A DNA stretch of 64,000 nt, from assembly GCA_017399485.1 (NCBI GenBank), contig JAFQCA010000007.1, forward strand, positions 62,001 through 126,000, read 5' to 3'. The first letter of the stretch is position 1. Every line of letters begins with the position of its first letter. Source of the DNA: Alistipes sp. (GTDB lineage Bacteria > Bacteroidota > Bacteroidia > Bacteroidales > Rikenellaceae). A program made the translations under genes and the position numbers. Shown in pieces: positions 56,693 through 60,446 of this stretch. The notes beneath the pieces are model-generated. The model was not told where the DNA came from and ran no database searches. It was given only the letters and a program-made list of their open reading frames with translations.

Positions 56693-56700
56693 TATATTTG
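56693..56700 (+). promoter_or_regulatory. -7 element of the metY-metX-hom operon
   Basis: TATATTTG, an exact TAnnTTTG match. The predicted transcript would start near 56707, leaving a leader of about 220 bases before metY. Confidence 0.6.
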
Positions 56701-56722
56701 CACATAATAATAACGTGTACAA

Positions 56723-56791
56723 ATGAGAAGACTCTGCAACATATTGTCGATGGTCACTATCCCTATGCACTCGATGCGAATGTGCCGATAG
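56723..56791 (+). CDS. Met-rich 22-residue leader peptide
   Basis: An ATG about 16 bases after the predicted transcript start opens a 22-codon frame (MRRLCNILSM, then residues 11-22) with Met at positions 1, 10, 15, 18 and 20. Four Met codons fall within an 11-residue stretch. A Met-rich short ORF at the head of a methionine operon is the hallmark of ribosome-mediated attenuation. Its stop codon lies inside a small hairpin (56782-56795). Not a known family; expression is unproven. Confidence 0.5.
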   Translation: MRRLCNILSMVTIPMHSMRMCR

Positions 56792-56905
56792 GCACTTCTT
56801 TAATCATAGGCGACTACGAGTTGCCGTGTGTCAATGGACACAAAAATCCCTTAACAATTATTAATTTGAGTTTTTATAAGTGTTCGGCTTGCGAGAGTAG
56901 CCGAA
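56782..56905 (+). promoter_or_regulatory. Hairpin series in the met operon leader
   Basis: Three perfect stems follow in order. GTGCC/GGCAC is at 56782-56786 and 56791-56795. TGTGTC/GACACA is at 56827-56832 and 56837-56842. TTCGGCT/AGCCGAA is at 56883-56889 and 56899-56905, 19 bases before the metY ATG. Segment 56791-56795 can also pair with 56828-56832 (one G-T), so the first two hairpins are mutually exclusive with a 2:3 pairing. None has a T-run, so termination is uncertain; the last could control metY translation. Confidence 0.4.
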
Positions 56906-56924
56906 TAATAAATATTTCAGAACT

Positions 56925-58208
56925 ATGGCAGATAATAAATTGCGTTTTGAAACCAAGCAGATTCACGGTGGTTATCACGTGGACCATACAGGCTCGCGTG
57001 GCGTGGCAATATACCCTACTGCGGCCTATCATTTCAAGAGTTGCGACTATGCGGCTCGCTTGTTTGAGTTGAGCGAGGGCGGTAATATATATACCCGTTT
57101 GCAGAATCCTACATCTTCGGCTTATGAGGAGCGTGTGGCTGCATTGTATAATGGTGTTGGTGCGTTGGCTTTGTCGTCGGGAATGTCGGCTATACTTATC
57201 ACGGTTACGGCGTTGGCTTCGGCAGGTGATAATATTGTTGCATCGCCCTATCTTTATGGTGGTACATACAACCAATTCCGAATATCGTTGCGTAAGTTGG
57301 GCGTTGATTGCCGTATTGCCAAAAGCGAGCGAGTGGAGGATTTTGAGGCGCTTATTGATGATAAGACGAAGATGATATTTGCCGAGAGTATGGGTAATCC
57401 GACCTGCTATGTTCCCGATTTGGAGGCGTTGGGTGAGTTGGCAAAACGTAAGGATGTGCCTTTTGTGGTTGATAACACTTTCGGTGCAGCAGGTTTCCTC
57501 TGCAATCCGTTTGATTGGGGCGCAAATATCGTAGTAGATTCTGCAACGAAGTGGATTAACGGTCACGGAACGGCTATGGGTGGCATCATCGTCGATGGCG
57601 GTAACTATAATTGGGCAAACGGCAAATTCCCGCAGATTGATGGCCCATCGGAGGGTTATCACGGATTGAATCTCTATGAGGCGTTTGGTGCTGCGGCCTT
57701 TGTCGTGAAGTGTCGAGTAGATGGTTTGCGCGATTTTGGTTGTTGCCCCTCGTCGTTTGATTCATATTTGATGTTGTTGGGCCTTGAGACTCTGTCGTTG
57801 CGTGTTAAGCATCAGGTGGAATCTACTTGGCGTTTGGCCGAGTATTGCCGCAACCATCCGAAAGTGGAGCGTGTAAGTTTCGTAGGTTTTGAGGACCACG
57901 CAGGATATGAGAATGCCAAGAAGTATTATCGCTATGGCTCGTCGGGTGTCTTCGCAATCGAACTGAAAGGCTCGCTGGATAGCACCGTACGTTTTGTTGA
58001 GGCGTTGAAGTTGGCAGCCAATATGACGATGATTGGAGATTCGATAACAGTTGTTACTCATCCCGCATCGACTACACACAAGCAGTTGAACGAGGCCGAT
58101 TTGAAGGCCGCAGGAGTTACGCCTACTCTGTTGCGTATCTCTTTGGGCTTGGAGAATGTTGAAGATATAATTGAAGATTTCGAGCAGGCATTTGCCGCAG
58201 CAGAATAA
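56925..58208 (+). CDS. metY: O-acetylhomoserine aminocarboxypropyltransferase (sulfhydrylase)
   Basis: 427 residues. A PLP enzyme of the cystathionine gamma-synthase fold, making homocysteine from O-acetylhomoserine and sulfide. FETKQIHGGYHVDHTGSRGVAIYPTAAYHF is the opening, then YTRLQNPTSSAYEERVAALYNG and ALSSGMSAI. The PLP lysine is Lys209 in VVDSATKWINGHGTAMGG. Near the C-terminus VVTHPASTTHKQLNE and LLRISLGLENVEDIIEDFEQA are typical of MetY. It precedes metX by 11 bases. Confidence 0.95.
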   Translation: MADNKLRFETKQIHGGYHVDHTGSRGVAIYPTAAYHFKSCDYAARLFELSEGGNIYTRLQNPTSSAYEERVAALYNGVGALALSSGMSAILITVTALASAGDNIVASPYLYGGTYNQFRISLRKLGVDCRIAKSERVEDFEALIDDKTKMIFAESMGNPTCYVPDLEALGELAKRKDVPFVVDNTFGAAGFLCNPFDWGANIVVDSATKWINGHGTAMGGIIVDGGNYNWANGKFPQIDGPSEGYHGLNLYEAFGAAAFVVKCRVDGLRDFGCCPSSFDSYLMLLGLETLSLRVKHQVESTWRLAEYCRNHPKVERVSFVGFEDHAGYENAKKYYRYGSSGVFAIELKGSLDSTVRFVEALKLAANMTMIGDSITVVTHPASTTHKQLNEADLKAAGVTPTLLRISLGLENVEDIIEDFEQAFAAAE

Positions 58209-58219
58209 GCGAAAAACGA

Positions 58220-59236
58220 ATGGCTCAATTCTATAGATACGATAAACCTTTTGAGTTGGAGAGCGGAGGTGTGCTACCCTCGCTTACGATTGCTTACGAT
58301 ACGTTTGGAGAATTGAATGCCGAGCGTAGTAATGTCGTTTGGGTTTGTCACGCATTGACGGCTAACTCGGATGTTGCTGATTGGTGGCCGCATACTGTCG
58401 AGCAGGGGTGTTTTTTGGACCCAGCGAAATATTTTACGGTATGTGCCAACTTCCTTGGTTCGCATTATGGTACGACAGGCCCATTGAGCGTGAATCCCGC
58501 AACGGGTGAGCCGTGGTATGGCGATTTCCCTCTGGTAACGGTGCGCGATATGGTACGTGCCCATCAACTTTTGGCAGAGCATTTGGGCATTAGTCGCGTG
58601 AAGTTGCTCATTGGTAGTTCTATCGGCGGTTTTCAATGTTTGGAGTGGTGTGTTATGCAACCAGATTTTGCCGAAAAGGCAGCGTTCATTGCTACTACGC
58701 CGCGTACAAAACCTTGGGCTTCGGCGTTTAATGAGTCGCAACGTATGGCTATCGAGTGTGACCCGACATTTGGTGAGCGGAGTGCCGAGGCAGGTCTGCA
58801 AGGTATGGCTACTGCTCGCAGTATAGCGCTTATGAGTTATCGTGGCGGTATGGCGTATGATAAAACGCAGGAGGATGAGAATCCTGATGAAGTGGGCTTC
58901 CAGCGTCGGGTCCTCTCGTATCAGCGTTATCAAGGTGAGAAGTTGCGTCGCAGATTCAACGCCTACTCATATTATCGTCTGTCGCAGGCTGTAGATTCTC
59001 ACAATTTAGGTCGTGGCCGAGGTCGTGTAGAGGATGTGTTGCGTCAGATTAAAGCAAAGAGTTTGGTTGTTGCAATCACGTCGGATATTTTGTTCCCACC
59101 CTCTGACCACGCTATACTTGTCGATAATATAGCAGATGTGCGCTATCATTTGATTGATTCGGATTTCGGTCACGATGGTTTCTTGGTTGAGCATAAACAA
59201 CTCAATGATATTATCATTAATTTTTTGAACGAATAA
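58220..59236 (+). CDS. metX: Homoserine O-acetyltransferase
   Basis: 338 residues, an alpha/beta hydrolase that acetylates homoserine for MetY. FELESGGVLPSLTIAYDTFGELNAERSNVVWVCHALTANSDVADWW is the start. The nucleophile elbow is Gly-Ser-Ser-Ile-Gly-Gly in LLIGSSIGGFQCLEW; the usual residue before Gly-Gly is Met. The Asp and His of the triad are in VAITSDILFPPSDH and DSDFGHDGFLVE. Acetyl versus succinyl specificity is inferred from family and from pairing with metY. Confidence 0.93.
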   Translation: MAQFYRYDKPFELESGGVLPSLTIAYDTFGELNAERSNVVWVCHALTANSDVADWWPHTVEQGCFLDPAKYFTVCANFLGSHYGTTGPLSVNPATGEPWYGDFPLVTVRDMVRAHQLLAEHLGISRVKLLIGSSIGGFQCLEWCVMQPDFAEKAAFIATTPRTKPWASAFNESQRMAIECDPTFGERSAEAGLQGMATARSIALMSYRGGMAYDKTQEDENPDEVGFQRRVLSYQRYQGEKLRRRFNAYSYYRLSQAVDSHNLGRGRGRVEDVLRQIKAKSLVVAITSDILFPPSDHAILVDNIADVRYHLIDSDFGHDGFLVEHKQLNDIIINFLNE

Positions 59237-59255
59237 AATAGAAAAACATATTATT

Positions 59256-60446
59256 ATGAATGGTAAAAAATTAAATATCGGTCTTTTTGGTTTTGGAACC
59301 GTAGGTAGCGGTTTGTATGATGTGCTGAAACGTATCGGCTCGAAGAATGTGGAAATCAAACGAATCTGCGTGCGTGATTTGAATAAGCAACGAGGTGTGG
59401 ATGCAGAATTCACAAATAACGCCGATGATATTTTCAATGACCCGGATATTAACTTTATTGTTGAGTTGATTGATGATGCCGATGCCGCATATACTATCGT
59501 TAAGCGAGCATTGCAAATGAGCCTGCCCGTAGTGTCGGGTAATAAGAAGATGCTTGCCCACCATATCGAGGAGTTGATAGAGTTGCAGGCTCGTTATAAT
59601 GTGGCTCTGTTGTACGATGCTTCGGCTTGTGGTAGTATTCCTGTAATTCGTAACTTGGAGGAGTATTACGATAACGACCTTTTGACTTCGGTTAAGGGTA
59701 TCTTGAACGGCTCGTCGAATTTCATTCTGTCGAAGATTTTTAACGAGAAGATGTCGTATGCCGATGCACTGAAGTTGGCACAGGATTTGGGCTTTGCCGA
59801 GAGTAATCCTACGCTCGATATTGACGGTTGGGATTCGTTGTTCAAACTTATCATCATCACCATCCACGCCTTCGGTTTGTATGTTGCACCAGAGGAGATT
59901 TTTACCTACGGTATATCTAATATGAATGACGATGATATCCGTTTTGCAAACGAGAAGGAGCGTCGATTCAAGTTGGTTGCTCACGTTGAGAAGATTCAGG
60001 GTAATAGACTTATTATGAGCGTTATGCCTCAACTTATTTCGCGTAATAAGTATATCTACAGCGTAGAGGATGAATTTAATGGTGTAGTTATCAAGGGCTT
60101 GTTCTACGATAAGCAATTTATGTTTGGTCGTGGAGCGGGTGGCTATCCTACAGGCTCTGCTGTGTTGAGTGATATTACGGCTTGCTTGTATGATTATAAG
60201 TATGAATATAAGAAACGTAATGATTCGCAACTGCCGACATATACTACAGACCACTCATTCCGTGTATATTACCGCTATTCGGATTATGCCGACCTCGATT
60301 TGGTGAAGTTTGAGTCAGTTAGCGAAAATTATATCTCGGACGAGTATAAGTATGTTGTTGGTAAGGTGTCGTTGCGCGAGTTGCATAAGATTCAGGATGA
60401 GTTGCGCCGTCGCAATGTATTCATTGCGGCCTACCCTAACGACTAA
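59256..60446 (+). CDS. hom: Homoserine dehydrogenase
   Basis: 396 residues. It reduces aspartate semialdehyde to homoserine. The NAD(P) fold is LNIGLFGFGTVGSGLYDVLK. VVSGNKKMLAHHIEELIEL and LLYDASACGSIPVIRNLEEYYDNDLLTSVKGILNGSSNFILSKIF carry the catalytic and binding residues, with GFAESNPTLDIDGWDSLFKL and GRGAGGYPTGSAVLSDI following. It is not fused to an aspartokinase. As the last gene of metY-metX-hom it supplies the MetX substrate, so the operon covers homoserine to homocysteine. Confidence 0.95.
   Translation: MNGKKLNIGLFGFGTVGSGLYDVLKRIGSKNVEIKRICVRDLNKQRGVDAEFTNNADDIFNDPDINFIVELIDDADAAYTIVKRALQMSLPVVSGNKKMLAHHIEELIELQARYNVALLYDASACGSIPVIRNLEEYYDNDLLTSVKGILNGSSNFILSKIFNEKMSYADALKLAQDLGFAESNPTLDIDGWDSLFKLIIITIHAFGLYVAPEEIFTYGISNMNDDDIRFANEKERRFKLVAHVEKIQGNRLIMSVMPQLISRNKYIYSVEDEFNGVVIKGLFYDKQFMFGRGAGGYPTGSAVLSDITACLYDYKYEYKKRNDSQLPTYTTDHSFRVYYRYSDYADLDLVKFESVSENYISDEYKYVVGKVSLRELHKIQDELRRRNVFIAAYPND

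Follow-up and report, generated by a model that had tools for sequence, protein, structure and literature searches.

The methionine-biosynthesis operon metY-metX-hom of an Alistipes sp. genome is preceded by a short, Met-rich leader, which we read as an attenuator that works through the ribosome and responds to charged elongator Met-tRNA. We put the probability of this reading at about 0.7. The leader, termed class A here, would be a terminator-less variant of such attenuators without an Rfam family. With its Met-rich peptide and the RNA fold behind it, both conserved ahead of the methionine genes in Alistipes-like bacteria of the gut, the ribosome itself probably reports methionine shortage. 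Most known control of methionine genes works through SAM riboswitches, Met T-boxes, or repressors. The features below, all on the plus strand, are numbered along the whole 64,000-nucleotide stretch of DNA that was analyzed (the window).

56693..56700, plus strand: -7 promoter box of the Bacteroidota type, TATATTTG (TAnnTTTG); seen in the sequence, with an equivalent box in most relatives
56723..56791, plus strand: leader ORF of 22 codons, MRRLCNILSMVTIPMHSMRMCR-stop; from the sequence, comparison with relatives, and in-frame ATG counts
56739..56744, plus strand: ACAUAU element, +15 to +20 from the leader start; position conserved, reading frame differing
56774..56795, plus strand: near-invariant motif ATGCGAATGTGCCGNTAGGCAC, comprising MRMCR-stop and hairpin H1; from comparison of relatives (CGA in 76/76)
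56782..56795, plus strand: hairpin H1, GUGCC / GNUA loop / GGCAC, with the stop codon UAG (56789-56791) in the loop; from alignment and covariation
56796..56808, plus strand: G-poor, U/C-rich spacer of about 12-13 nt between H1 and H2 (G about 1-9% at positions 2-11)
56809..56825, plus strand: hairpin H2, GGCGAC / UACGA / GUUGCC; two-sided covariation in all six pairs
56828..56841, plus strand: hairpin H3, GUGUC / AAUG / GACAC; close relatives only
56883..56905, plus strand: distal hairpin (H4) of the initial annotation; exists, variable in sequence, missing in some close relatives
56925..58208, plus strand: metY, O-acetylhomoserine sulfhydrylase; TIGR01326 above cut-off
58220..59236, plus strand: metX-like homoserine O-acyltransferase; best model TIGR01392, below its curated cut-off
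59256..60446, plus strand: hom, homoserine dehydrogenase; NF004976 above cut-off

The Met-rich leader and its relatives

The leader ORF runs from the ATG at 56723, 30 nt downstream of the TAnnTTTG box, to the TAG at 56789-56791. Its peptide holds five Met residues, four of them at positions 10, 15, 18, and 20. The initial annotation had described a 22-codon Met-rich ORF between the promoter and a methionine-synthesis operon, and its coordinates, Met count, and gene assignments agree with ours. The gap between the leader stop and metY is about 133-135 nt in the window, and the distance from promoter box to leader start is 25-31 nt in most relatives. The metY-metX-hom order was kept in all 29 long loci compared. 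In two relatives (L036 and L132), a TATATTTG box lies between the distal hairpin and metY, directly ahead of the gene; transcription in some relatives may thus also start at a second promoter, past the leader.

Among named organisms, the genome is closest to Alistipes and other Rikenellaceae MAGs, of which many come from ruminants. The class A layout, consisting of a start codon, a variable Met-rich stretch, the near-invariant end ATGCGAATGTGCCGNTAGGCAC, the spacer, and H2, is shared by 76 metY-linked relatives. Nearly all of these are Rikenellaceae, joined by three Prevotella and one Muribaculaceae MAG. The motif of each metY-linked copy shares its reading frame with a start codon upstream. 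For the Prevotella copies, the start deduced from the sequence is likely TTG, which gives MRTFSKNIVLCSTFMMRMCR-stop and leaves the promoter distance unchanged. One MAG carries two metY loci (G054:C26 and G054:C70), each with a class A leader, and their MetY proteins are 95% and 97% identical to that of the window; either duplication or a mixed bin would account for the pair.

A relaxed scan for the class A motif over 84,980 species returned 87 stretches. Matches without a metY link lay mostly inside long coding genes and did not exceed chance (estimate, about 30). With three mismatches or fewer allowed, 79 of the 268 genomes of the family matched, a few of them spuriously, and the motif was rare elsewhere. 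A motif scan of 395 genomes of the phylum found it in the genome of the window only. A covariance-model search of 393 genomes of the order, whose coarse first filter leaves absence unproven, returned the window and a chance match in a peptidase gene. Short ORFs ending in MCMRMCR-stop, such as MTANKTSFASAMRVCMCMRMCR-stop, were seen in three Microbacteriaceae MAGs (L067:518 +, L089:60 +, and L127:6688 +), about 116-120 nt ahead of a protein of ~220 aa resembling a winged-helix regulator, of which a 150-aa piece had no match in Pfam. This looks like an unrelated Cys/Met leader.

When the leaders of 74 relatives were aligned for Met codons, as had been proposed with the initial annotation, ATG was found at 188 of 1534 in-frame codons (12.3%), but at only 11 of 2920 codons (0.4%) when the two other frames were read (Fisher p = 1.9e-75). 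Thus, the Met codons are under selection. They are concentrated in the second half of the leader (167/785 codons, versus 21/749 in the first), and the commonest site outside the motif, two codons ahead of it, is occupied in 36 of the 74 leaders. Four minimal leaders have no Met outside MRMCR-stop. On this comparative evidence, the leader is translated in the frame expected, with selection acting on its Met codons.

Across the genus sample, the region upstream of metY was of three kinds: class A, a sister class B, and those with no leader or with metY directly after another gene. Class A and class B leaders occur in different genomes. Class B comprises about 17 loci in the genus (e.g., L025 and L022, and loci of the L205-L224 set such as L216), with leaders such as MDARTTYRMNTGMVSFGTMMMVMCMCSRICRV-stop, and its in-frame ATG count is 99/494 versus 7/956 out of frame. 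The leader end GCCGGGUG(UAG) can pair with AUCCGGC to form an antiterminator (GCCGGGU/AUCCGGC), and AUCCGGC doubles as the 5' half of a terminator stem that is followed by a T-run. With the ribosome stalled at Met codons, GCCGGGU would stay free for antitermination, while a ribosome that reaches the stop would cover it. Judged by these pairings, the class B leader is a textbook methionine attenuator, and Met-tRNA sensing by the class A leader is therefore more credible. The two classes share the operon, a Met-rich leader, ACAUA at +16, and a similar C-terminus containing Cys and Arg, whereas class B has an antiterminator and a U-tailed terminator where class A has H1 and H2. No description of class B metY leaders was found in the literature searched. 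A class B-type leader of another family (L175, G797), ending in MSMMMVTCMRNRRSRV-stop and with a GGCCGGCTT...ATGCCGGCTTTTTTA terminator, precedes a MetY 75% identical to that of the window.

Conserved RNA at and behind the leader stop

The leader RNA of the window folds better than shuffled sequences (z = -2.9). The overlap of the leader stop with a hairpin, already pointed out in the initial annotation, is borne out: in the window H1 reads GUGCC(GAUA)GGCAC, with the UAG in its loop. The 3' arm of H1, at and past the stop codon, pairs in all 60 aligned copies and has one variable position only, at which U-A becomes U-G in three of them. H2 lies about 13-16 nt past H1 in relatives, with a conserved YACG-type loop. 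The stems, whose conservation was also to be checked, are thus preserved in two ways, H1 by a nearly invariant 3' arm and H2 by covariation in all six pairs. By these alignments, H1, the spacer, and H2 constitute conserved RNA.

MRMC is invariant across the metY-linked copies and is followed by R or L. In the two copies with Leu (L048 and G598), the H1 stem is retained. The first Arg codon of MRMCR is CGA in 76/76 copies, versus 12% of the Arg codons of the window; at the wobble position of the last Arg, by contrast, all four bases occur. Coding in an overlapping DANVPIGT frame was rejected: the single base of the motif that is free to vary alters a residue of this frame, yet the third positions of the frame are all constant.

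At the position of the ACAUA element, CATA occurs in 53 of 73 class A leaders versus 6.1 in shuffles, and the element is present in 13 of 16 class B leaders. It falls in two reading frames in class A and in a third in class B, and is therefore not a peptide feature; a search for an RNA pairing partner found none. The invariant CGA codon and the ACAUA element suggest further RNA-level signals. The MRMCR-stop/H1 motif, the covariation of H2, and the ACAUA element were all absent from the initial annotation.

Pairings of the 1:2, 2:3, or 3:4 type had been proposed, and hairpins H1, H2, and H3 do exist. In the 2:3 type, the 5' arm of H3 could instead pair with the 3' arm of H1 (GUGUC with GGCAC); this alternative is seen mostly in close relatives with an H3. 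When mutually exclusive structures were examined, H1 and H2 were conserved and the alternatives confined to subgroups. The idea that the invariant motif pairs in general with segments further downstream was rejected: a weak excess was found for GCCGU and GGCAC only, and the G-rich arm of H2 can explain that of GCCGU. The minimum-energy fold of the window suggested that the leader 5' region pairs with the metY start. This was rejected as well, since the two regions of one locus paired no better than regions exchanged between loci (permutation p = 0.99).

A ribosome-mediated sensor and its alternatives

In the proposed mechanism, a ribosome would load on the leader soon after the promoter. Under Met-tRNA shortage, it would stall at the Met codons, which cluster within the ten codons upstream of MRMCR-stop. 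With ample Met-tRNA, it would reach the UAG in the H1 loop, open H1, and cover the spacer. A ribosome covers about 12 nt beyond the A-site codon. Most Met codons outside the motif are placed such that a stalled ribosome would leave the 5' arm of H1 free, and at the commonest Met site its edge would come right up to H1. H1 and H2 would thus form in starvation, and a ribosome terminating at the stop would disrupt them. The starvation state would raise expression of metY-metX-hom through some mechanism other than intrinsic termination. Here, we infer the stalling, the direction of control, and the role of H1 as a switch.

The ribosome-mediated Met-tRNA sensing put forward in the initial annotation is strengthened by the extreme in-frame Met enrichment and by the canonical Met leader, antiterminator, and terminator of the sister species. 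It is also supported by the constant presence of the operon after the leader (29/29), by an ORF that is always open to MRMCR-stop, by the covariation of H2 and the near-invariance of the H1 3' arm outside the coding part, by the occurrence of the two leader classes in separate genomes, and by the lack of a SAM-I match in the genome. The four leaders without Met outside MRMCR-stop count against it. The two Met residues inside MRMCR do not fit simple upstream stalling, since a ribosome stalled there would cover H1. The invariance of CGA is not explained by Met sensing.

As the initial annotation had noted, there is no terminator. In the window, no U-run follows a hairpin near metY, and H1, whose tail is poor, is the sole terminator-like match in the leader. 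Between the motif and metY, 1 of 76 loci has a stem followed by a U-run, and H1 tails scored 1.6 on average versus about 4 for class B terminators; intrinsic termination in class A was rejected on these grounds. The suggestion that metY translation is controlled through the hairpin at 56883-56905 found no support. This hairpin is missing from four close relatives (L010, L082, L092, and L111), was discarded as the key element, and is dispensable for the leader architecture. In a thermodynamic model, predicted accessibility of the metY start hardly shifted with ribosome position (0.506, 0.510, and 0.519), which speaks against such control through this hairpin and against sequestration of the start by H1/H2. 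The lack of a terminator and the near-independence of modeled metY start access from the ribosome also count against the attenuator reading. Candidate output steps are Rho, mRNA decay, RNA polymerase pausing, and translation initiation.

Among the alternatives, it is conceivable but unlikely that the leader encodes an arrest peptide. As with TnaC or SpeFL, the nascent ...MRMCR would stall at UAG on a small molecule, either methionine or SAM, the stalled ribosome would set the downstream RNA structure, and the Met-rich part would add or tune sensitivity. TnaC and SpeFL act at the stop codon and have conserved C-terminal residues beside it. The invariance of MRMC in all metY-linked copies, minimal leaders that retain this end alone (e.g., MNLSSYI-MRMCR-stop), and the short MCMRMCR-stop ORF ahead of a regulator-like gene in three Microbacteriaceae MAGs are consistent with such a peptide. 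However, the terminal residue tolerates Leu, and the wobble base of CGA and the untranslated GGCAC are invariant too, so that the constraint need not act at the peptide level; nor does arrest predict the strong selection for Met codons upstream of the motif. Slightly less probable again is a dual peptide/RNA sensor, in which MRMCR-stop would arrest at UAG on methionine or SAM with the stop in the hairpin and the Met-rich part would serve as a second, tRNA-based input.

There is little likelihood that the RNA binds a metabolite or protein directly through the invariant ATGCGAA, H1, and the H2 loop, with the ORF secondary. Nucleotide-level invariance including CGA, conservation of unpaired bases, covariation of H2, and the conserved ACAUA element would suit such an RNA, but the in-frame Met enrichment and the always open frame argue against it, and a search of the window against Rfam gave nothing at gathering and, at E<=10, only two matches, both far below threshold. 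A SAM riboswitch was rejected, with no match in the window for any Rfam family and no covariance-model match to SAM-I above gathering in the window or the whole genome. SAM riboswitches (RF00162 and others) control methionine genes in other phyla, and the class A element differs in containing a translated ORF. Least probable, by a small margin, is a classical attenuator with H1 or the distal hairpin as intrinsic terminator: the U-rich spacer after H1, the detection of H1 by the terminator scan, and the terminators of class B speak for it, but the H1 tails and the single stem plus U-run do not, and with Met in good supply the ribosome terminating at UAG would melt H1, which gives the wrong direction of control.

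Known attenuators and the two RNA back-ends

Met-tRNA sensing by class A resembles trp/his/leu/ilv-type attenuation in its short ORF rich in codons for the amino acid of the operon, its hairpins at or after the ORF end, and its place ahead of biosynthetic genes. Class A differs in that the intrinsic terminator of the transcriptional subtype is missing after the leader ORF, the stop is locked in an invariant hairpin, the C-terminal motif is nearly invariant, and the amino acid is methionine, in Bacteroidota. Translational attenuators such as erm and Bacteroides tetQ, which sense antibiotics, likewise combine a leader ORF and hairpins without a terminator, whereas sequestration of the metY start is unsupported by our model in class A. 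Neither the leader peptide MRMCR nor a Met-codon leader or attenuation in Bacteroidota was mentioned in the literature open without subscription. PMC4833913 cites a 2010 comparative survey of attenuation.

Within one genus, Met-rich leaders of one operon are thus backed by two kinds of RNA, with and without a terminator. The class A/class B pair provides a natural comparison for a change in the output stage of an attenuator. These bacteria rarely use Shine-Dalgarno initiation. The terminator-less form offers a testable case of a stalled ribosome controlling a gene about 135 nt downstream.
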